This document shows, piece after piece, positions 4,318-14,050 of a stretch of 38,139 bases of DNA. The number at the start of each line of letters is the position of its first letter. The first letter of the stretch is position 1. Origin of the DNA: Muribaculaceae bacterium (GTDB lineage Bacteria; Bacteroidota; Bacteroidia; Bacteroidales; Muribaculaceae); assembly GCA_017624155.1 (NCBI GenBank), contig JAGANS010000008.1, positions 1 through 38,139 of the forward strand, in the 5' to 3' direction. Below the pieces are notes generated by a model. It did no database searches. It saw nothing but the letters and a program-made list of their open reading frames with translations, and was not told where the DNA came from. A program made the translations under genes and the position numbers.

Positions 4318-6483
4318 TCAATAAACCAGCTCGAGGTCGTCGAGATACATTGTTGAACCATTACCGCCCACGAAGTAATCACCGCCAATCGATGCCGAAG
4401 CAGTACACATTATATATGACGGCTTGACGTCTGTACGACGATAATCGAGAGTAATCTCAAACGGTACCATCGCATCGCCAGAAGTAGCCTGATCTATCAC
4501 AAGTTTACCGAATGCTATCACATTGGAGCCATTTTCATTGAACAGTTCCACTGTCTTGGTATTGACAGTGACAGGATATTCGTTGCTGTCTCCAACCATC
4601 TGATCATCAAGAAGAGCAATATAAATGATAGCCTTGTCCATGTCGCCTTTCTTGAGGTCGGTATATTTATTATTGTCGTGTGTCACAGCGACAGGCGTAT
4701 AATGATACCACCCATGGAGTGAAACCGGGCGAGAACTCCAAGGACGTCCCCAGCCGAGGCGGCCATTGGTGCCAAGAGTCTCAAGGTATTTGCCTATGAA
4801 TATATTGCCGGCGGCAAATTTGCCCGCAACTCCGATACCGACAAACTGGGATTTAAGGGCAACAGAATAGCTGCCTTCATGAACTTTATCAGAGGAATGT
4901 TCTGTAACCTCCTTTGACATGCTCATGGACCCCCAGTTGCCGCAATCCCAAAACCACTCTGATTCGTTTTTGGCAAAGACGGTGACGTCCTTGTTCCTTA
5001 AGATAGCATCGTCGCGAACCTTGCATACATCCTCAAAACTTGCATTTGACAGTTGAGTGGCCGACTCGGTGGTGAAACTGAGGACTTCGGACTCATAGTC
5101 GTCGGTGGCAGCGCAGTACTCGTAGACTGTGCCGGGTTCAAGGCCGGTAATGGTGGCAGCGAGGCCTGCGTCGGCATTGTTGTCGGCGACAGTCCATGTG
5201 GAAGTGCCAAGTTTACGGTATTTGATACACGGATTGGCGGCATCGGCCTTGTTGATAACGGCAGTGACGGTAGCCTTGGTAGCCCAGACATCGGCCGGGT
5301 TGACAGCCGTAATGGATACGGGATCGGCGCTCACCACAATATTGAGAGTGGCAGTGGTGCGCTTGTCGTTGCTGTCAATGGCGGTAATCTCGACGGGATA
5401 TTTGCCGTCGGGGAGGCTGTTGGTGAAGGCGGTACCGAACACGAGCTTCATCTGAGAGAAGCCTGTGGAGGCATCGGTCTCAAAATTCTCGTATGTGATG
5501 CCGGCATCCTTCACGGCCTGATCGAGCTGCGGATTGGTGTTGCGGAGGAGGTCGAAATCGCCGAGTTCGCCACCGGGAATACTGCCGAAAAGTGTGGCGA
5601 AATACGGACAACTGAGCACAACGCCGTCGAGGGGAGCCGAAGAGGTGATCCACACTGACTTTTTGCCAATCTTACCGGCTTCGCCGCGTACATCGGCATT
5701 TATGTCGAAGTTGATGCCCTCGACGGCCGGAGCGGCAACTACAGAAACGACATCATTGACATCGATCATCGTATCATCGACCGAGACAGTGAAATAGGCG
5801 CCGCCGACCTCACTGTTCTCGCCCTTGAAAGTGATGTTGAGGGTGTAAAGGGTGGCGGGGGCACAAGCCTCGATCTTGCCGGTTTTCTCGAATGCAGAGC
5901 CATCGATCTGAGTGCCTGAGAGAGTCCATACAAGATCCTTGTCGCGGGAGTTCATCATGAAGTAACCGCGGCGATCGTCGCGACCCTCGTAGGTGAGTTC
6001 GCCCTGAGAGTGGCCCACAGTGAGGATATAATCGGAGAGAACCTGATCGACCGAGGCGTCATAGGCCACAGCGACAACGGTATTGACAATACGGCACGGT
6101 ATCTGAACCGACTTCTTGTCACCGTTGGCAATGTCGAAGTCCTGAGCACCGCGGAAATAACGGCAGTCAAATGAAGCGGGGACGGAGTCGCCGACCCAGG
6201 CATGCGCGCGGTAGCTGCCGGCAAGGAGTTTGAGACCGCCGGCAGGCAACTCGTCGAGGTCCTTATATTCATACTGGACGCCTTTGGAATTCGCAATCCA
6301 CAGGGCCTGAAGCTGATAACCGTCGACATCGGTGCGGCTCTGAGTCTTGACATCGCTGCTGACAGCAGCAGAGATGAACACGGTGCCCTGACCGTCGGCG
6401 GGGACGAAATCGTCGTTGGAGCAAGAACTCAGCGCAGCGGCCACAATGGACACAGCTGCTATTTTGTTATATATCGTCTTCAT
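4318..6483 (-). CDS. DUF4493 surface lipoprotein with C-terminal PCMD-like domain
   Basis: This 721-residue lipoprotein has the lipobox ALSSC (Cys about residue 21), followed at once by SNDD, which resembles the acidic export signal that puts Bacteroidetes lipoproteins on the cell surface. Residues about 25-260 fit DUF4493. A central stretch carries immunoglobulin/fibronectin-like segments (for example LEPGTVYEYCAATDDYESEVLSF, whose core fits an FN3 strand pattern). The last 220 residues resemble the PCMD fold (putative carbohydrate metabolism), with GNIFIGKYLETLG, RPVSLHGWYHYTPV and the closing LYLDDLELVY-type strand. I chose the ATG at 6483, giving MKTIYNKIAAVS, over an ATG 33 nt upstream because it gives a proper signal peptide and clears the preceding stop. 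It is the last gene of a three-gene operon. Surface glycan binding is an inference. Confidence 0.82.
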   Translation of the reverse strand: MKTIYNKIAAVSIVAAALSSCSNDDFVPADGQGTVFISAAVSSDVKTQSRTDVDGYQLQALWIANSKGVQYEYKDLDELPAGGLKLLAGSYRAHAWVGDSVPASFDCRYFRGAQDFDIANGDKKSVQIPCRIVNTVVAVAYDASVDQVLSDYILTVGHSQGELTYEGRDDRRGYFMMNSRDKDLVWTLSGTQIDGSAFEKTGKIEACAPATLYTLNITFKGENSEVGGAYFTVSVDDTMIDVNDVVSVVAAPAVEGINFDINADVRGEAGKIGKKSVWITSSAPLDGVVLSCPYFATLFGSIPGGELGDFDLLRNTNPQLDQAVKDAGITYENFETDASTGFSQMKLVFGTAFTNSLPDGKYPVEITAIDSNDKRTTATLNIVVSADPVSITAVNPADVWATKATVTAVINKADAANPCIKYRKLGTSTWTVADNNADAGLAATITGLEPGTVYEYCAATDDYESEVLSFTTESATQLSNASFEDVCKVRDDAILRNKDVTVFAKNESEWFWDCGNWGSMSMSKEVTEHSSDKVHEGSYSVALKSQFVGIGVAGKFAAGNIFIGKYLETLGTNGRLGWGRPWSSRPVSLHGWYHYTPVAVTHDNNKYTDLKKGDMDKAIIYIALLDDQMVGDSNEYPVTVNTKTVELFNENGSNVIAFGKLVIDQATSGDAMVPFEITLDYRRTDVKPSYIMCTASASIGGDYFVGGNGSTMYLDDLELVY

Positions 6484-6488
6484 GGTTA

Positions 6489-8078
6489 TTATTCTATAAC
6501 GAAGATAAGACTGCATGATTCAGTATTGCCATTATTATCCTCAACGGTAATCTCAAATGTTTGAGTTCCGGGGAATATCAGCAACGGGAGGAATCCTGTA
6601 ATATCAAAGACTACTTCTTTCTTATCAATGACATCTTCTCCACATAAAAGACCGAGACCAGGATTTTCAGGAGTTTTGTCACCCTCGAAAATAACGCGAT
6701 ATTCACCAGGATAAGCCAAGTCAAAATCAAGAGGCATACCGACATCAACAAGGGCGTCCTTAAAGGCACCACTCGGATTAATCTTGACCCGGAGATGAGC
6801 GACACCAGCAGGTACAGTAATATTTACCTTACCATCAGTGTAGTCGGCCGGATTCATGGGCTCGCCAAATTTGAGGGCACTTTCAAATTTGATGCCCGAT
6901 TCGGCACGAGTGCGGAATCGGAGTGTCTTATCGGCAGTGTTGCCGTCGGCATCCTCGGCGGCGATGCTGACGGTGTGGAGGCCGGGGAGTTCGGCGAGGC
7001 GTGAGATGAGGGCGGCGAAGTCGAGTGTAAGCTCTGTCTCGGCATTTGCGGCAGTCGGCAGGCCGAAGTCGGCAAGGCTGAGAGCGGCAGCCTCGGGGTT
7101 GTCGGAGGACAGAACAAGGCTGAGGCGTATAAGACCGTTGGGAGCGGCAATAACGACTCTGGCATCGGCGGGAGCGGGCGAAACGGGGATTTCGTCGGTG
7201 AAGCTGAGAGGCGAGGTGACGGTAATCTTGTCGCGGAACTGTTCCTGATTGGGATCGTCGGGGTTGATAGGATCATCCGAGGGATCGATGACGCCGGGGA
7301 CATCTTCGTCATTAACGACATTGTCGATTGAGACGCTGATGCCGACGTTGCCGCTGGGTTCGGGCTCAAAGGGTGGCTCGGTATCGTTCTTTTTGAGGGA
7401 GAATGTGATGATATAATGCTTGCCCGGCTCGACGTCGGTATAGACCTTGCGTGTCTCCTCGTCGTTGCCGCCTATCTGACCGCGGAAAGTAGCGATAAGG
7501 GTCATGGATCCGTCGATGACCTCGAAGAATCCCGAGCGTGTTTCGGTGGAGGCAAATTCGAGCGCGGTCTTCACATCGGCCTGGGTCTTACCGGCCTCGA
7601 CAGTCACTTTTGAATCAGAACTCATCGCTTCAAGAAGGGCCTGAGTGTAGCGGACGGAGACCTTGAGGGAGGCGAAGGTGCAGGTTATGTTGCCGATATT
7701 GGTGATTTCATTCTTATTGATATTGAACACCTGCGAGCCCCTGAACAGGGGTTCGTCCCAAGCGGAGGGCTTTACTGAATGGGAAACGATGTCGACGCGG
7801 TAGTTGTCGGCAACGGGGAGCTCAAAGATCTCGGGGACGTCCTTGTATGCCCATTGGCGCACGAGGAGACCGTCCTTGTCGTAAATCGTGACGAGATAAT
7901 CGCTGAGGTCGACTTCCGAGCGGCTGACAACCTTCTCGACGCCGCTGACCTCGACACCCATCTGCTCGAAAGACACCTTACCGGTGCTTTCAGTCTTTGG
8001 ATTCCAGTCCTCGGAACAAGCCGAGAGCCCGACAATGGCCGCGGCAAGCGTAAGAATGGATAATATCTTGGTTTTCAT
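6489..8078 (-). CDS. DUF4493 surface lipoprotein without PCMD domain
   Basis: This 529-residue lipoprotein has a signal peptide ending VGLSAC, with SEDW just after the lipid cysteine (an acidic, surface-export-like start). The N-terminal 240 residues have the DUF4493 pattern shared with both neighbours: a short strand segment after the Cys, a YDYLVTIYDKDG-type strand, GSQVFNI, then conserved strands up to PGKHYIITF. A linker rich in Asp, Pro and Glu follows (about 240-285, PEPSGN to NPDDPNQEQ). The remainder contains beta-sandwich-like repeats. Unlike its neighbours it has no PCMD-like end. It sits 19 nt after the upstream gene and 5 nt before the next, so all three should share one mRNA. The function is unknown; an adhesin or a glycan-binding role is plausible. 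Confidence 0.8.
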   Translation of the reverse strand: MKTKILSILTLAAAIVGLSACSEDWNPKTESTGKVSFEQMGVEVSGVEKVVSRSEVDLSDYLVTIYDKDGLLVRQWAYKDVPEIFELPVADNYRVDIVSHSVKPSAWDEPLFRGSQVFNINKNEITNIGNITCTFASLKVSVRYTQALLEAMSSDSKVTVEAGKTQADVKTALEFASTETRSGFFEVIDGSMTLIATFRGQIGGNDEETRKVYTDVEPGKHYIITFSLKKNDTEPPFEPEPSGNVGISVSIDNVVNDEDVPGVIDPSDDPINPDDPNQEQFRDKITVTSPLSFTDEIPVSPAPADARVVIAAPNGLIRLSLVLSSDNPEAAALSLADFGLPTAANAETELTLDFAALISRLAELPGLHTVSIAAEDADGNTADKTLRFRTRAESGIKFESALKFGEPMNPADYTDGKVNITVPAGVAHLRVKINPSGAFKDALVDVGMPLDFDLAYPGEYRVIFEGDKTPENPGLGLLCGEDVIDKKEVVFDITGFLPLLIFPGTQTFEITVEDNNGNTESCSLIFVIE

Positions 8079-8097
8079 TGTATTTTATCGGAATAGG

Positions 8098-10620
8098 TTA
8101 GTAGGTTAATTCAATGTCGTCGATGTAGAGCTGGGAACCCATGAATGTTCCGTTCTGAGATGCAAAACCGGGACCTGAGAAATTATCATCCGTGCGCTTA
8201 TAATACTCCATATCATACGAAGACATAAATCTGATATAAATCTTGTCGCAAGCAGGCGCATTGACGTCGTAATTCAAAGCTATTGATTTCTGAGTATAAC
8301 TTCCGACAGCGTCGAGCAATAAAGTTGTAGCGAAGATCTTATTTCCGGAGGCATCCTTTAACCAGACTTCGGCGAGACCTTTATCTGATGAATTTTTGGG
8401 AGAGTATTTATACCAGAATGAAATAGAGGCGGGGCGCGATTTAAAATCCAGTCCGCACGACAAATCATCAGTACCTGCGGGACCGGGGCTGCTGCTATTA
8501 GTCTTATTGTCATTTTCTCCATATCCCGACGGACGAGTTTCACGGGTACTGCCCAAATGCAGAAGGCCGGGATCAGTATATTTGCAGGCTCCACTGGTCC
8601 CATTACTGCCGGTTGCCGAGTTATTCGAGCCCCAGCCTACTGAGCGAAGCAAAGCGGCCGATCCTGAATGAGAATCCGTAGTCTGGATTGTACCGGATAT
8701 TGCTTTATATGGCCTGTTATTGCCTATGGAATTACTGCCTGTAGGCTGACTCGTCGTCATAGTATTGTTTGTGCCCCATGTAGGGAATACAATATTTTGC
8801 CATGCAGAGCCACTTGATGCGACAGTCACATCAGCATCAAGATTTCCATTAGGGATCTGTGCATCGGCTTCGGTTGTGAATGATATGTTGTAGCCTTGTT
8901 CGAGGGTCTGATCGCCGTTGACGATGCGGGCTTTGTATGAGGTGGCCGGGGAGAGGCCGGCAATGTGAAGAGTCTTAGTGGCCGGATCGGCTGTAGCCGA
9001 GACAAGACTGTAGTTTGTGCCATCGGTTGAGAGATATACCTTAGCGGCGTTCATCATGGTGGTGAGCAACTGAGTGTTGCTGTCCTGCGTGCCGATTGAT
9101 ACGGGTATGTAGGCATGCTTGGCAAAAGCATTTGGCGTGGTGCCGGGAGCCGGGAAGAGCTGCGGACGGCGGACGGCGGTGTAGCTTACATCAGCCACGC
9201 CGGGCGCGGAAACGGTGAATGAGAAATCCTTTTCAGAGGCATAAACCGGAAGGGTGGCACGGTAGAGGCCGTCGGAGATTTTCTCGTATTCGGGATTAAC
9301 CTCACGGTCGACGCCGTTGAGGCCGCGGTACCTGAACACTACCCTGCCGGTAGGATCGCCGCCATTGTAGCGCACATCGACCTTGAGGGTGGTGCCCATC
9401 ACATAAAGCTCGTCGTTCTCGAGCGACAGCGCGACGGGCGAAGCGACAAGGCTCAGAGTCAAAGGCTCGGACACGCGATTGAACTTATCCATGACCCTGA
9501 CGGTAAATGTATTGACGTTGTCGTCGGCCGAGGCCGCGCCCGGTATGTATGATAAGTGGTCGAGCACCTTGTCGAAGGTAATAACGGCCAGTTTTTCAGG
9601 ATTATGGTAAAGGCCGCGAACATCGAGGCCGAGTGATTCGAGAGTCTGCTGCATGGCGGCATCGGCGGCCATGAAGTTGAGTTCAGCAGGCCATCCCTGC
9701 GAAGTGAGAGACTTTGACGAAGTAGTGAGCCTGACTTCCTGCAGTCCGGCCTGCGCAATGATATTGAAGGCAAGTGAGCGGTCGAGCTTCATGCCGGTGA
9801 CAAATTCGACGGGCTGCCCGTCGGAGAAGCCGGAGGCGGCCATTATGGGCAGAGGAGCGTTGAGCACGTCGTCGCTGATGTCGATAACGGGAAGGTCGCC
9901 TTCGTCGAGAGTCTCGTCGACAGAAACCGATATACCCTCAAGGTCGCCCGAGCCGTCACCGGCCATGTCGACCTTGACGTGGTAGTGATAACGCGGCTGC
10001 GCGGTAAAGCTTGCAACGCGTACAGTGCCGCCATTGCCGTTAGGCTTTACAAAGGTAATATCGACCGACACCTCACCGGGAGTAAGGTACAGGAAGCGGG
10101 TATTGCCCTGCTCCAGTACATACGAGTCATTGACACCGGCGCTCCAGGAAGTCATGTAATTGACAAACTTGTCGCCATACTCGACGGAAATCACCGAGTT
10201 GGCAAGCGATACGGCGAGATTGGCACTGACCGTCTTGTCTTCCTCGACTTTCACCTGAGCTGAACCATAAAAATATGGAGCGTCGAAACCTTGGGCATCG
10301 TCGGAACCATAGAAAGCCTCGACTGTATAGAGGCCGACATTGAACTCCTGCGATTCGCCAAAGGCACTGACGTTGTCGAAAGTCTTGGTGATCGAACCGT
10401 CGGCCGATGTGACTTTCAGAGTCAGATCATCGACAGTGATGTCGGTGTATTCGGCACGGGATGCCCGCGATGATTTGACCGATGTGTCGACGACAGGAGT
10501 CAGGGCAATTCTGCCGCGGCCGCTGTTCCTGTCAAATCCGGTGCCGATACCGTCGGAACAGGACGCAACTAAGGAAAGCGAAGCAAAGCAGACAATGCCC
10601 TTGAGCATTTTAGTCTTCAT
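8098..10620 (-). CDS. DUF4493 surface lipoprotein with PCMD-like domain, first in operon
   Basis: This 840-residue lipoprotein has the lipobox LVASC followed by SDG. The N-terminal DUF4493 region (about 30-235) includes FNVGLYTVEAFYGSDDAQGFD, the same strand order seen in the two downstream paralogues. The middle contains several beta-sandwich segments, one FN3-like (HIAGLSPATSYKARIVNG). A Ser/Asn/Gly-rich tract near 650-720 precedes a PCMD-like end (SRPASISFWYKYSP, then SQLYIDDIELTY, matching the end of the third protein). The three genes therefore look like duplicated and diverged surface proteins expressed as a set. A -7 box lies about 90 nt upstream. No transposon or invertible promoter is seen nearby. 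Substrate or partner is unknown. Confidence 0.82.
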   Translation of the reverse strand: MKTKMLKGIVCFASLSLVASCSDGIGTGFDRNSGRGRIALTPVVDTSVKSSRASRAEYTDITVDDLTLKVTSADGSITKTFDNVSAFGESQEFNVGLYTVEAFYGSDDAQGFDAPYFYGSAQVKVEEDKTVSANLAVSLANSVISVEYGDKFVNYMTSWSAGVNDSYVLEQGNTRFLYLTPGEVSVDITFVKPNGNGGTVRVASFTAQPRYHYHVKVDMAGDGSGDLEGISVSVDETLDEGDLPVIDISDDVLNAPLPIMAASGFSDGQPVEFVTGMKLDRSLAFNIIAQAGLQEVRLTTSSKSLTSQGWPAELNFMAADAAMQQTLESLGLDVRGLYHNPEKLAVITFDKVLDHLSYIPGAASADDNVNTFTVRVMDKFNRVSEPLTLSLVASPVALSLENDELYVMGTTLKVDVRYNGGDPTGRVVFRYRGLNGVDREVNPEYEKISDGLYRATLPVYASEKDFSFTVSAPGVADVSYTAVRRPQLFPAPGTTPNAFAKHAYIPVSIGTQDSNTQLLTTMMNAAKVYLSTDGTNYSLVSATADPATKTLHIAGLSPATSYKARIVNGDQTLEQGYNISFTTEADAQIPNGNLDADVTVASSGSAWQNIVFPTWGTNNTMTTSQPTGSNSIGNNRPYKAISGTIQTTDSHSGSAALLRSVGWGSNNSATGSNGTSGACKYTDPGLLHLGSTRETRPSGYGENDNKTNSSSPGPAGTDDLSCGLDFKSRPASISFWYKYSPKNSSDKGLAEVWLKDASGNKIFATTLLLDAVGSYTQKSIALNYDVNAPACDKIYIRFMSSYDMEYYKRTDDNFSGPGFASQNGTFMGSQLYIDDIELTY

Positions 10621-10889: not shown

Positions 10890-13199
10890 TCAGATGCTGA
10901 TGGAAACGGCAGCCGATACGGTGCGCGGCAGCGCGGGGCCGTAGATATATCCCGAGTCACGGTCGGGACCGCGGTCAAAATCGTTCTGATAGCTGTTGAA
11001 TATATTCCCTACCCCGGCACTGACATCGAGATCGACGCGGTTGAATATACGGAAGCAGTAGGTGAAGCGGACGGATGCGTCGAAGAAATGGGGAGTACGG
11101 ACAGCAAGGTCGACATCGGTGCCCGAGCCGACGAGATGCTGCACGGTCATCGGGCCGGTCCATGTAGCGTCGACGGTCGCCTTGAACGCCTTGGTGATGC
11201 CGATGTTGGCAGTGAGATAACCATAGACGTCAGGCGTGCGAAACATGCGCTTTACCGCAGGGACATCGGGATTGTCGCTCCAGTGCTCGGGCTGCTTGTA
11301 TCGGCTGCGCTGGATCGTGACGCCGGCCTGAACATCAAGAGAAGAGGAGAAGAAGGCTTTTGCCTCGAGATTCATACCGGCTACATGAGCGCCCGAGCCG
11401 TTGTAACGCTCGAGGACTGTGTTGCCGGCCGCATCAGGATCGGGAAGCTGACGCAAAGCGAACACATCGCGCAGGTCGGTGTAGAAACCCTCGATGAGGA
11501 AATTGGTCTGCACGTTGCCGAAGCGGTGATATAAGTCGGCCGAGGCGCTGATGCTCTGCGAACTTTCCTGCTTAAGGCCTGGGGCGAGAATCGTAACTAC
11601 ACGGTCGCCGCCGACGATGGCCACATGGAGGTCCTCGTCGTAGGTCTGCGGCGAGCGGAAGCCGGTGCTCCACGAGGCGCGCAGGTTGACGTCGGGCGTG
11701 GGATTGAAACGGATGTTGGCACGTGGCGACACGATGGCATTGTGGATGAGGGAATGCTTGTCGAGGCGTGCGCCAATGAGAAAGCCCCAGCGGTCGGTGC
11801 GCCATTCGTTCTGCAGATATGCGCTGTAGATGTTGACGTTCTGCAGCAGATCGTGGTCGTAGCCGAGGGTACGATCGTGCAGTCGGTTGTAGGAATACTC
11901 AAGACCGGCAACGAGTTCGGCCGGCATGAACCACAGGCGCGAGAAGGGATGAGTCCATTGCGAGCCGGCAGTAACCACGGCGTCGGATGTGCGGCCATAA
12001 GCGTCGGGATCCATGTTTGAGCCGTAATAACTCTGCCGGTGTGTGAGCTGCGTGGCGGCGAATACAGCCACATGGTCGCGATGGTCGCGAGGCCACAGGT
12101 CAAGGGTCATCTCGGCGGCATGAATGTTGTGGTCGGCCTGCTCGGCGATCATAGCCATGTGGGGCTGCAGGGACAGCTGATCGCCACCGCGGCGATATTC
12201 ATGTGTGTTGTGGTATTCGAGAGTAATGCGCGAGATTTCGGACGGACGCATGAATGCTCGCGTACCGATTGTCTGCGAGCGCAGCTGTGCCACCTCGGTG
12301 AAGCCGTCGCCGTCGTGGTCGTAACCGTCGCGGTAGCGGCTCTGACCGTAGACAAACATGCCGGCCTTGCCGTTGTCGGTGACTATCGAGGCATTGAGTG
12401 TGGTATTATTGTCGAAGGCACCGGAGGGGCCGATGGATGTGAGCGTGTGGGATACATGCGCAGAATTGGCCACCGGATCCTTGGTAATGATGTTGATCGT
12501 GCCACCGACGGCTGATGAGCCGAACAGGGCAGAACCGCCGCCTCGCATCACTTCGACGCGCTCGATCATATTGGCGGGTATCTGCTCGAGGCCATAAACG
12601 CCGGTGAGCGCCGAGAATACCGGCCGCGAGTTCATGAGAATCTGCGAATAGTGACCGTCGAGACCGTTGATACGCACTTGTGTGAAACCACAATTCTGAC
12701 AGTCGTTCTCGACACGTACGCCGGGCTGGAAGTCGAGTCCGTCGGCAAGTGAACAGGCACCGACAAGGTCGAATGTCTTGCCCGAGAGCACACTCACGAG
12801 CGAGGGGCTCTCGCGGCGTCGCACCTCGCTTTTTGAAGAAGTGACAACTACCTGATCGAGCATGAAAGCATCAGGCTCGACATCAAAGTTAAGTTCAACT
12901 GTCTGCCCGGCGGCTACTTCGGCGGTAAGTTTCTTTGTCTTATATCCGGTAAAGGATGCTTCGAGTGTATAACGGCCGGGAGTAAGGTCGCGGAACACAT
13001 AGTGTCCAGAGGCATCGGTCATTGTAGCAAGGCGGGTGCCGTCGATGCGGACAAGATAGTATGGCATGTGTTCGCCGGTCTCGGTATCGACAACATGGCC
13101 GGTGATATTGGCGTCGGACACAGGCGCCGGAGCGCCGGCCGCGGCAAAAATGCAGCCGGCCACGAAGGCTGCTGCCGTAAAAAAAATATTTTTAAGCAT
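10890..13199 (-). CDS. TonB-dependent outer-membrane receptor (probable metal or metallophore uptake)
   Basis: This 769-residue receptor has an N-terminal signal peptide, a carboxypeptidase-regulatory-like domain (about 32-110, ITGHVVDTETGEHMPYYLV), a TonB-box-like DQVVVT (115-120), a plug (about 125-245) and a 22-strand-type barrel. The plug ends in the typical RVEVMRGGGSALFGSSAVGG followed by TINIITK. It has an unusual CxxC (C167, C170, in ENDCQNCGFTQVRINGLDG) at a place that could bind a metal. The family resembles FepA/CirA-type receptors, not SusC glycan porins: it has no SusD partner and is shorter than SusC. It lies 46 nt downstream of a His-rich ORF ending LRAPPM, and a hairpin fills that gap, so its expression may be controlled by translation of that ORF. 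The substrate is inferred, not shown; copper, zinc, iron or a small chelate would all fit. Confidence 0.9.
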   Translation of the reverse strand: MLKNIFFTAAAFVAGCIFAAAGAPAPVSDANITGHVVDTETGEHMPYYLVRIDGTRLATMTDASGHYVFRDLTPGRYTLEASFTGYKTKKLTAEVAAGQTVELNFDVEPDAFMLDQVVVTSSKSEVRRRESPSLVSVLSGKTFDLVGACSLADGLDFQPGVRVENDCQNCGFTQVRINGLDGHYSQILMNSRPVFSALTGVYGLEQIPANMIERVEVMRGGGSALFGSSAVGGTINIITKDPVANSAHVSHTLTSIGPSGAFDNNTTLNASIVTDNGKAGMFVYGQSRYRDGYDHDGDGFTEVAQLRSQTIGTRAFMRPSEISRITLEYHNTHEYRRGGDQLSLQPHMAMIAEQADHNIHAAEMTLDLWPRDHRDHVAVFAATQLTHRQSYYGSNMDPDAYGRTSDAVVTAGSQWTHPFSRLWFMPAELVAGLEYSYNRLHDRTLGYDHDLLQNVNIYSAYLQNEWRTDRWGFLIGARLDKHSLIHNAIVSPRANIRFNPTPDVNLRASWSTGFRSPQTYDEDLHVAIVGGDRVVTILAPGLKQESSQSISASADLYHRFGNVQTNFLIEGFYTDLRDVFALRQLPDPDAAGNTVLERYNGSGAHVAGMNLEAKAFFSSSLDVQAGVTIQRSRYKQPEHWSDNPDVPAVKRMFRTPDVYGYLTANIGITKAFKATVDATWTGPMTVQHLVGSGTDVDLAVRTPHFFDASVRFTYCFRIFNRVDLDVSAGVGNIFNSYQNDFDRGPDRDSGYIYGPALPRTVSAAVSISI

Positions 13200-13223
13200 A
13201 AGTCTTTGGGTAAGAGTTTGGTA

Positions 13224-13251
13224 ATGTGATTATGACAGGAATCAATCACAT
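13224..13251 (-). promoter_or_regulatory. hairpin covering the stop codon of the LRAPPM ORF
   Basis: On the minus strand ATGTGATT (13251-13244: last Met codon, stop codon and two more bases) pairs perfectly with AATCACAT (13231-13224), with a 12-nt loop. The 3' arm ends 24 nt before the receptor start. A ribosome arrested on the two Pro codons would cover the entire 5' arm and keep the stem open, as in SecM-type control. This use is inferred from position. Confidence 0.6.
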
Positions 13252-13584
13252 CGGAGGAGCCCTGAGCCCAAAGTGGAATGTGTTGCCGGAAAATACGCAA
13301 GGCTGCGACACACAGGCAACGACAACAAATACTGAAGAAGGATCAAACGGGATAACCGAGGCAACGGCATCAAAAGAGCCGGCCGCCATGTTGAATGCGG
13401 AGATAGAACCAAAAGCCTCGGCGCTGTGTGTGTGGTGTGATGACGGCACATAGGGATGCGAGTGTGCGATATAATTGCCGTCGGCACAGCGGTGGGAGTG
13501 CATAAAAACCGTGTTGGCTGTCATGAAGTAAGCCAACACAATCATCATCAATACGGACAATACACGGGCCGCTGCTTTTTTCAC
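13246..13584 (-). CDS. His-rich membrane leader ORF ending LRAPPM, candidate arrest peptide
   Basis: This 112-codon ORF directly precedes the TonB receptor. The start is GTG (13584), chosen because a -7 box ends 5 nt before it and because it gives a proper basic n-region (MKKAAARVL). Residues 8-27 form a signal-anchor or signal peptide. A histidine cluster follows (H29, H31, H41, H43, H50, H51, H53, in HSHRC, HSHPY and HHTHS). C91 and C96 lie in CVSQPC. The protein ends FGLRAPPM at 105-112. RAPP is a known ribosome-arrest sequence, and RAPP-type ends after a metal-binding segment recall the DUF2946/CruR copper-responsive upstream ORF of Bordetella. When stalled, the tunnel would hide about the last 35 residues and leave the anchor and the His cluster outside. 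A structural or metal-carrying role for the finished protein is the alternative. Confidence 0.78.
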   Translation of the reverse strand: MKKAAARVLSVLMMIVLAYFMTANTVFMHSHRCADGNYIAHSHPYVPSSHHTHSAEAFGSISAFNMAAGSFDAVASVIPFDPSSVFVVVACVSQPCVFSGNTFHFGLRAPPM

Positions 13585-13589
13585 GGCTG

Positions 13590-13597
13590 CAAAGTTA
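13590..13597 (-). promoter_or_regulatory. -7 promoter box of the LRAPPM ORF-receptor unit
   Basis: TAACTTTG on the minus strand, 5 nt before the GTG start at 13584. No -33 TTG is seen at 19-21 bp; a TTTG lies only 12 bp upstream. A leaderless or nearly leaderless transcript is predicted. Confidence 0.55.
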
Positions 13598-13669
13598 ACG
13601 TTTTTTTTGCAAACATTTATACAGCGATGTTGTTTTTACTACAAGAGATGAAATAAAAAACATACAACC

Positions 13670-14050
13670 ATGACCGACGCTCAGAAAACATCGACAGAAG
13701 CACGCCTGGAGGCTGAAGTGGCCCGTCAGGCAGCAAAGGTATCGGCTTCGGCAGCCGCACAGGCAGCCCGTACGGAAGCCCAATCAATAAAAGAACAGGC
13801 GCAGGAAAAGGCCGCACAGGCAGGCGCCGGCGCCAAATCGGCTACGGAAGCCGCAAAGGAAAAGGCAGCCGAACTCAAAGAACAGGCAGCCGACAAGTTT
13901 GGCGACCTCAGGGAGAAGGCCGCCGACAAATTAGGCGACCTCAAAGGCAAAGCCGCATCAGTGGCATCGTCATTGCTTGACAAGAGCGGCGACCTGCTCG
14001 ACAGTTTGTCGGACAAAGCTCACGACGCGGCTGACAAATTAGGAAAATAG
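13670..14050 (+). CDS. LEA-like Ala/Lys-rich helical repeat protein
   Basis: This 126-residue, low-complexity protein is dominated by Ala, Lys, Glu, Asp and Leu, with no Cys, Trp, Pro or His. From about residue 55 a degenerate 11-residue helical repeat is visible: ELKEQAADKFGD, DLREKAADKLGD and DLKGKAASVASS, then SDKAHDAADKLGK. This is the pattern of group 3 LEA and apolipophorin-like proteins, which protect membranes or proteins during drying or stress. No signal peptide is present, so it should stay in the cytoplasm. Bacterial histone-like tails are also Ala/Lys-rich, but this one is nearly balanced in charge. It has a strong terminator 67 nt downstream and no clear -7 box upstream. Confidence 0.75.
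   Translation: MTDAQKTSTEARLEAEVARQAAKVSASAAAQAARTEAQSIKEQAQEKAAQAGAGAKSATEAAKEKAAELKEQAADKFGDLREKAADKLGDLKGKAASVASSLLDKSGDLLDSLSDKAHDAADKLGK

Follow-up and report, generated by a model that had tools for sequence, protein, structure and literature searches.

A candidate metal-responsive arrest leader with a histidine module, a C-terminal RxPP motif and stop-to-start RNA pairing upstream of TonB-dependent receptors in Bacteroidales

We analyzed a stretch of 38,139 nucleotides from a Muribaculaceae bacterium (hereafter the window; positions 1 to 38,139 of contig JAGANS010000008.1 in the 2.44 Mb, 97-contig assembly GCA_017624155.1), in which a short His-rich open reading frame (ORF) ending in Arg-Ala-Pro-Pro lies directly upstream of a gene for a TonB-dependent receptor (TBDT). 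We consider it probable that this ORF is a cis-acting, metal-responsive arrest leader of the CutF/CruR kind, which would control translation of the next gene through RNA pairing between its own end and the following start codon. Comparison of its homologues shows a conserved motif, a conserved His module, a fixed spacing between the two, co-transcription signals and position-specific complementarity. The features of the locus are as follows:

13246..13584, minus strand: leader ORF of 112 amino acids with GTG start (13584) and TGA stop, from sequence and homologues
13504..13563, minus strand: hydrophobic signal-anchor-like segment, approximately residues 8–27, from inspection and conserved hydrophobic columns
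13426..13500, minus strand: putative His sensor module HSH, HSHP, HTH, residues 29–53, from conservation in 116 homologues
13252..13263, minus strand: putative arrest motif Arg-Ala-Pro-Pro, residues 108–111, from RxPP in 137 of 141 homologues
13255–13257 and 13252–13254, minus strand: predicted P site and A site, in a register borrowed from CruR toeprinting (PMC12992588, the part considered)
13590..13597, minus strand: Bacteroidota-type -7 box TAACTTTG, ending 5 nt before the leader GTG, from sequence
10890..13199, minus strand: TBDT of 769 amino acids with the Pfam domains Plug, TonB_dep_Rec_b-barrel and CarbopepD_reg_2

The leader ends in FGLRAPPM-TGA, its seven His occupy residues 29, 31, 41, 43, 50, 51 and 53, and CVSQPC stands at residues 91–96. 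The FGLRAPPM end and the seven His between residues 29 and 53, together with the anchor, the sequence CVSQPC, the 46 nt between the stop codon and the TBDT ATG (13199) and an exact 8-bp inverted repeat over the last Met codon and the stop codon (13224–13231/13244–13251), had been described in the initial annotation, and all are present. The leader also agrees with the size and position rules given for CutF-like proteins in the part of PMC9973294 considered, being shorter than 150 amino acids, with Pro-Pro in the last 15 residues (here followed by one residue) and a same-strand gene within 1000 nt.

A tblastn search recovered the leader from 52 of the 198 genomes in its family, its own genome counted, and a profile built from 29 leaders (A1) placed it in at least 135 of 393 sampled genomes of the order Bacteroidales, a lower bound because at most 11 first-look candidates were scored per genome. 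With a wider profile (A2) it was present in 23/49 genomes of its own genus (12/33 among the good ones), in 9/9 and 22/26 genomes of two other genera, and in 17 of 296 genomes drawn across the phylum. The leader family is thus common across Bacteroidales and sparse outside the order. Named carriers of the His type include Parabacteroides distasonis, P. gordonii, Bacteroides pyogenes, B. timonensis, Phocaeicola faecicola, Muribaculum caecicola and Dysgonomonas sp. BGC7. Tandem leader-receptor-leader-receptor units, approximately 3 kb apart, occur at L121, L129 and L138, and two weak matches elsewhere in the phylum, L288 and L289 (with CDICH and CPLCYHH), end in RAPP/RGPP and are followed by a lipoprotein-like gene.

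A reference set of 141 distinct leaders was assembled from the loci of several genome searches. RxPP stands close to the C-terminus in 137 of them (91 RAPP, 37 RGPP, 5 RDPP, 3 RPPP, 1 RSPP), and the four without it are L111 and L139 (KAPP), L122 (KSPP) and L031, a frame-broken copy containing Ns in a metagenome-assembled genome (MAG). The three genera sampled above contribute 43 more distinct leaders, with RxPP in 41 (the others being L187, RGPT, and L188, PAPP). Since the profiles include the motif, the sets found with them are biased towards it; the 30 loci recovered with the window protein itself (own locus included) give a less biased view, with R[AG]PP in 28, RDPP in one and none in L031, and a sample chosen by the receptor (below) agrees with it. 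The motif is followed by 1–8 residues in 138/140 leaders. The initial annotation had suggested looking for short His-rich, RAPP-ending ORFs before TonB receptors across Bacteroidales; the next gene is a TBDT at 118 of the 141 loci.

Among 116 aligned leaders, H29, H31, H41, H43, P110 and P111 do not vary, while H51, H53 and R108 are each kept in at least 90%, so the His set is conserved as well as RxPP. Gly36, Ser/Ala42, Pro44 and a few residues up to position 64 are moderately conserved, and every column of the linker (residues 67–103) falls below 40% identity. No conserved Cys was present outside the anchor in these 116 leaders, CxxC occurring in three, and CVSQPC, which had been singled out as a feature, was therefore rejected as a metal site. 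None of the 116 homologues matched PF11162 (DUF2946) at E 0.01, and no Pfam or NCBIfam model covers the family: five single-member Pfam matches and a DUF6681 match of the leader were discarded as composition or noise, and the HypB His-rich prefix (NCBIfam, touching 41/116) as a composition match. The motif is encoded with every one of the six Arg and four Pro codons, which indicates that selection acts on the peptide, and the preservation of RxPP with varied codons argues that the leader is not a chance frame. Between nine leaders from another genus, codons differed in 2680 comparisons, of which 1249 were synonymous, and the third position changed most (1214, 806 and 1976 changes at the first, second and third codon positions, respectively). 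That the ORF has arisen by chance next to a chance hairpin, for which one could cite an inner hairpin with a z score of only -1.75, is refuted by these homologues, conserved across the order and sparsely beyond it, and we give it practically no weight.

The distance from the last HxH to the Arg of RxPP is 53–59 residues in 130 of 140 leaders, across a linker that is not itself conserved, while the distance from the first HxH is more variable. Ten leaders deviate, eight with 66–72 residues and two (L013, L094) with an extra HxH near the end. In the part of PMC12992588 considered, CruR toeprinting shows a stall in which the P site holds the third residue of the motif; in that register the last HxH would lie about 59 residues from the peptidyl-transferase center. 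PMC9973294 (again for the part considered) reckons with approximately 30 residues inside the tunnel and 17 for the membrane, and on these figures the last His pair would sit just outside the periplasmic opening of SecY, with the other two farther out. The earlier proposal that the His cluster is far enough from the peptidyl-transferase center to lie outside the ribosome agrees with this spacing.

The first downstream gene at the 141 loci encodes a TBDT in 118 cases, while 17 loci have an RND membrane-fusion protein, 2 have an outer-membrane efflux protein and 2 have another gene; 2 opposite-strand calls look miscalled (a receptor start is visible at L035 and at the second copy of the L065 locus). 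None of the 141 loci has a sec or yidC gene downstream. Where the sequence sufficed, RND loci read membrane-fusion protein, RND pump and outer-membrane protein, or have the outer-membrane protein first. One genome (G301) carries three leaders, two before receptors and one before a gene of RND membrane-fusion type. Two RND pumps were compared with solved structures and ZneA was closest to both (855 vs. 510 bits; 1210 vs. 498), which disfavors a CusA-like copper pump. Eight pumps longer than 900 amino acids share QPIID and three of these also GxDPFxPxxIE, motifs whose residues we take to have a role in ZneA. By sequence, the ZneA likeness points to zinc.

The box TAACTTTG was named a promoter element after TAnnTTTG, which we take to be the -7 consensus of Bacteroidota. 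This consensus occurs within 100 nt upstream of the leader start in 116 of 140 loci (within 30 nt in 101, within 12 nt in 41), against a background, not matched for composition, of 0.048 per 100 nt over the 300 nt from the leader start on, and in only 2 of 137 gaps between leader and next gene. Its position before the leaders and near absence from the gaps suggest co-transcription, and with only 5 nt between the box and the GTG in the window, the mRNA probably carries next to no 5' leader of its own. Judged from these promoter-like sequences, a single transcript with a very short 5' end very likely covers both the leader and the gene after it.

In addition, the association was examined from the side of the receptor, by running a plug-domain profile (A3) against named genomes and taking the best 80 of at least 571 confirmed loci; the counts rest on the 75 with at least 300 nt upstream. 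The leader profile matched at 43/75 loci, with the motif in 42; the match at L229 is weak and belongs to another type, and the leader at L260 is broken. When the 33 other loci (L260 included) were searched for the motif only, 11 more RxPP-ending ORFs emerged. Six of these belong to an Alistipes type, three carry CxxCH, L274 is unclear, and the last is the second half of L260, so that an RxPP-ending upstream ORF is present at 53/75 receptor loci. By comparison, 60 of the 4,546 ORFs of at least 50 codons at the 80 loci end in RxPP, and these are mostly the leaders themselves. The second RAPP leader type (HIYxEDxxHFxAxxGDLxPDNGA) comes from Alistipes-titled records (L220, L222, L223, L224, L228, L229, L237) with relatives of the same receptor downstream, and the CxxCH type is found at L233, L246 and L268. 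Two of the latter approach DUF2946 below its curated cut-off (L246, E 0.01; L268, E 0.11), while the remaining six of the eight other-type leaders compared had no match. The same receptor is thus headed by leaders with different putative sensor modules and the same ending, and both the 137/141 and the 53/75 counts support the initial prediction of an RxPP arrest-type leader of a TBDT. The window receptor has a carboxypeptidase-regulatory-like N-domain and CQNC in the plug (conserved columns), and its closest solved chains are CirA-type, from which no ligand was inferred. Of the 16 named records whose receptors are nearest to it, 7 bear Muribaculaceae names; two MAGs titled Lachnospiraceae (L195) and Alistipes timonensis (L201) have plugs 95% and 91% identical to that of the window, and their titles are probably wrong.

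The strongest RNA signal was complementarity between the end of the leader and the start of the next gene. For 129 loci, the 25 nt after the first Pro codon were paired with the gap plus the next start, keeping the best uninterrupted helix, and the same 25 nt swapped in from other loci served as control. Native helices were stronger than swapped ones (mean difference -2.81 kcal/mol stacking, p = 4.5e-12), while windows upstream of RxPP had no effect (p = 0.43 and 0.19) and one straddling the motif gave p = 0.06; the null upstream windows mean that base composition is also controlled for. Related loci are not independent, and swaps among relatives work against the effect. Helices of at least 10 bp were found at 40/129 loci vs. 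5.6% of swaps, all different in sequence in the examples of 14 bp at L020, 16 bp at L011 and L066, and 11 bp at the RND locus L085. The excess in base-pair probability over swaps peaks 6–20 nt after the first base of the P-site codon, with positions -32 to +8 of the next start as partner, and the mean minimum free energy z score of the region is -2.05 (121 loci). Local pairing between the leader end and the 60 nt that follow it was not enriched, and indeed fell below swaps (0.115 vs. 0.127, p = 0.006), so the pairing partner lies farther on. The result was replicated in 67 further loci (96 candidates minus 23 duplicates, 5 without start or motif and 1 out of range), with p = 8.9e-10, helices of at least 9 bp in 33/67 vs. 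12.8%, and p = 0.079 and 0.9 for the upstream windows. The initial annotation had tied its proposal to conservation of RAPP and of the hairpin: the motif is kept, and what recurs of the hairpin is position and complementarity only, a conserved hairpin sequence having been rejected.

In our stall model the ribosome covers up to 15 nt beyond the first base of the P-site codon, and a 5' arm in the region described would be covered by a ribosome stalled at RxPP. Modeled accessibility of the start at TBDT loci increased from 0.509 to 0.561 on stalling, a rise exceeding that of swaps (p = 0.00018), and at RND membrane-fusion loci from 0.436 to 0.527 (p = 0.018), with a change above 0.1 in 8/15 and below -0.1 in 1. 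In a set of nine sequences from one genus, RNAalifold placed a helix at the expected position, with one outer pair changed on both sides; the changed pairs were 8/23 overall, with 16/207 cells unpaired, in a set too small to carry weight.

In the window itself, two nested helices are predicted:

13244..13251, minus strand: inner hairpin 5' arm, comprising the last Met codon, the stop codon and two bases, 6–13 nt after the first base of the P-site codon
13224..13231, minus strand: inner hairpin 3' arm, 25–32 nt before the TBDT ATG
13267..13273, minus strand: predicted outer helix 5' arm CUUUGGG (7 bp), in the leader just ahead of RAPP
13204..13210, minus strand: predicted outer helix 3' arm CCCAAAG, 5–11 nt before the TBDT ATG

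A ribosome stalled with the third residue of the motif in its P site would cover the inner 5' arm, as had been proposed. Alone, the inner hairpin is unremarkable (z -1.75; 8/200 shuffles fold equally well), and with 17 extra leader bases and 10 extra receptor bases the outer helix closes and the fold reaches -22.3 kcal/mol (z -3.53, 0/200 shuffles). When the leader bases before RAPP are included, modeled accessibility of the TBDT start increases from 0.358 to 0.428 on stalling, and since the inner hairpin has no such effect (see below), control of the start in the window would rest on the outer helix. An Rfam scan of positions 12900–13700 gave no match near the cut-offs, the two best at E 0.18 and 0.69 being far below gathering score.

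We propose a transcript that begins at the leader start codon or just ahead of it and continues into the TBDT. The nascent chain would be exported via SecYEG, such that HxH-HSHP-HxH is on the periplasmic side when RAPP occupies the peptidyl-transferase center, and the ribosome would pause with its P site holding RAP and its A site Pro. It would then mask the last codons and the stop codon, which are otherwise predicted to pair upstream of the start codon of the next gene (in relatives, often at that start codon itself), and the freed start would allow the TBDT to be translated. A given metal state would release the pause; the ribosome would then complete the leader and depart, which would allow the pairing to form and switch off the TBDT. 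For the leader family, we infer the pause as such, the export, the binding of a metal, which metal it is and the sign of its effect. Zinc seems the most likely metal, and copper is not favored over it, both being putative; at TBDT loci, the metal would presumably release the pause.

Several observations weigh against this reading. The modeled gain at TBDT loci is modest, with changes above 0.1 in 32/112 and below -0.1 in 2, and the two outer-membrane-efflux loci have no modeled rise. With the inner hairpin only, accessibility in the window stays at 0.467 on stalling (0.467 before), because 24 nt separate the end of the inner 3' arm from the ATG, and the outer helix is a model prediction for this single locus. 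A set of eight sequences gave a weak common fold in RNAalifold (2/11 pairs, few sequences) and a set of six related ones gave none. Furthermore, 22/75 receptor loci lack an RxPP leader (at 14 of these 22, TAnnTTTG stands within 100 nt of the receptor's own ATG), 26/49 genomes of the leader's own genus, many of them incomplete, gave no leader, and outside the order the motif is looser, with RxPP in 11/14 phylum loci (the others being L280 with RAPS, L284 with KSPP and L279 without anything similar at its end). Arrest, export and metal response of the family are also predictions from sequence only. Finally, efflux genes too are preceded by this leader type, with an unchanged pairing geometry, and a single metal sign would not fit both an importer and an exporter. 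The conflict is not fatal because CutF and CruR differ in sign: in the parts of the two papers considered, copper lengthens the CutF pause in Rhodobacter capsulatus and a detoxification enzyme is switched on (PMC9973294), while copper releases the CruR pause and an importer is switched off (PMC9426467). Either further details tune the sign, or the sensed metal is not what the receptor imports.

Among other explanations, transcription attenuation of the CruR type has the most in its favor, although we regard it as rather improbable. Here the pause would bar Rho from the gap between leader and TBDT, and its release would expose a C-rich, rut-like stretch at which transcription ends before the TBDT. 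CruR itself acts through Rho (PMC9426467, the part considered), and the 131 leader-gene gaps are C-over-G skewed (median 0.125 vs. -0.020 in 119 control gaps, p = 2e-7), YC-rich (0.093 vs. 0.065, p = 2.4e-5) and contain CTCTCC in 14/131 (e.g., L009, L015, L026) vs. 2/119, a possible rut-like element or other signal; the control gaps, however, contain promoters and terminators. This route also needs no stop-to-start pairing, the strongest RNA signal that we found, and the two layers may act together. A monitor of export or membrane insertion of the SecM, MifM or ApdP type, in which pull by the translocon releases the pause and the His are incidental, would share the anatomy of N-terminal anchor, C-terminal RxPP and downstream stem, but the His are as conserved as RxPP and the neighbors are TBDTs and metal-type efflux genes instead of sec or yidC genes, which makes it quite unlikely. 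Slightly less likely still is a small exported His-rich metal-binding protein, co-expressed with the receptor without regulatory arrest: the His module and the hydrophobic N-terminus fit such a binder, which leaves RxPP beside the stop codon, the 53–59 residue spacing and the stop-to-start pairing unexplained.

A metal-responsive arrest leader would be of a known kind, that of CutF and CruR, and is here a His-only variant without a DUF2946 match. The relations below hold for the parts of the cited papers considered. Ozturk et al. 2023 (PMC9973294) counted 5,334 CutF-like proteins, 19% of them in Bacteroidota (40% after normalizing), with OEP, CzcA/CzcB-type and TonB neighbors and two His-only clusters (14 and 17) before HupE/UreJ genes. 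Our leaders resemble CutF in being small and exported by prediction, with a metal motif at a set distance (45 amino acids in CutF) from a C-terminal proline motif, and resemble the CutF-like set in the mRNA stem predicted over the next start, the TonB, CzcA/CzcB-type and outer-membrane efflux neighbors and the many Bacteroidota members. They differ in that CutF has CxxxC and responds to copper, which prolongs its pause, whereas the leaders here have His only, a spacing of 53–59 and RxPP, and precede TBDTs instead of the HupE/UreJ genes of clusters 14 and 17. CruR (BP2923 of Bordetella pertussis, DUF2946) is likewise an upstream ORF before a TBDT with a C-terminal RAPP and a fixed metal-motif spacing (PMC9426467), although with 45 intervening residues against 53–59, with CXXC, Rho-dependent termination and a reported action independent of its signal peptide, against His and no PF11162 match here. 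RAPP/RGPP upstream ORFs of TonB-related genes occur throughout Gram-negatives, copper-related ones lacking in Bacteroidota (EMBO J 2025, PMC12992588), and these, as well as ApdA/ApdP/RQH (PMC10987492), share with our leaders the C-terminal RAPP/RGPP and a signal sequence, which is putative here. The systems in these two papers are bulk counts or sec/yidC monitors, and the portions covered hold no His-only TonB leader of Bacteroidota, no spacing rule and no stem. Homologues of the leader may already be inside the lists of PMC9973294 and PMC12992588, and the statement in the initial annotation that no such system is described in Bacteroidetes stands only in that no experiment was found, as CutF-like proteins and RAPP/RGPP TonB upstream ORFs had already been counted there. 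In the titles and abstract openings covered, we found no experiment on such a leader in Bacteroidota, and no His-only family, 53–59 ruler or stop-to-start pairing.

Opening of a stem at the next start also recalls SecM-secA and VemP-secDF2, in which a paused ribosome opens a stem hiding the next start; these sense protein export and their targets are Sec genes, which sets them apart. Bacteroidota are said to start translation mostly without Shine-Dalgarno pairing, and in contrast to CutF the stem here would shield the start region in a phylum that hardly uses such pairing. If our proposal is true, control of the CutF/CruR type would extend to a His-only sensor and to such a phylum, and gut Bacteroidales would read periplasmic metal by a growing peptide, beyond repressor proteins, and thereby control outer-membrane receptor and metal-efflux genes. 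The family would offer many natural variants of one fixed-ruler design, in which the position of the sensor at the pause is directly testable, and a likely role for many small ORFs without Pfam or NCBIfam model. A broader synthesis is considerably more tentative, and we would sooner doubt than assert it as a whole: His-only, zinc-reading arrest leaders could be a main metal switch of Bacteroidales, combining the HxH-RxPP ruler of 53–59 residues with the stop-to-start helix and near-leaderless transcripts, used on an uptake receptor and on ZneA-type pumps, with metal releasing in one and holding in the other, and with sensor modules (His6, Alistipes-type, CxxCH) exchanged before the same receptor.

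Two further observations concern the neighborhood of the locus. A divergent ORF at 13670–14047 (plus strand) encodes an Ala/Lys-rich helical protein resembling YtxH, LEA and apolipoprotein families with scores below cut-offs, and past the receptor, at 4318–10620 (minus strand), three successive DUF4493-domain proteins are encoded, one with a PCMD domain and another with a weak PCMD match.

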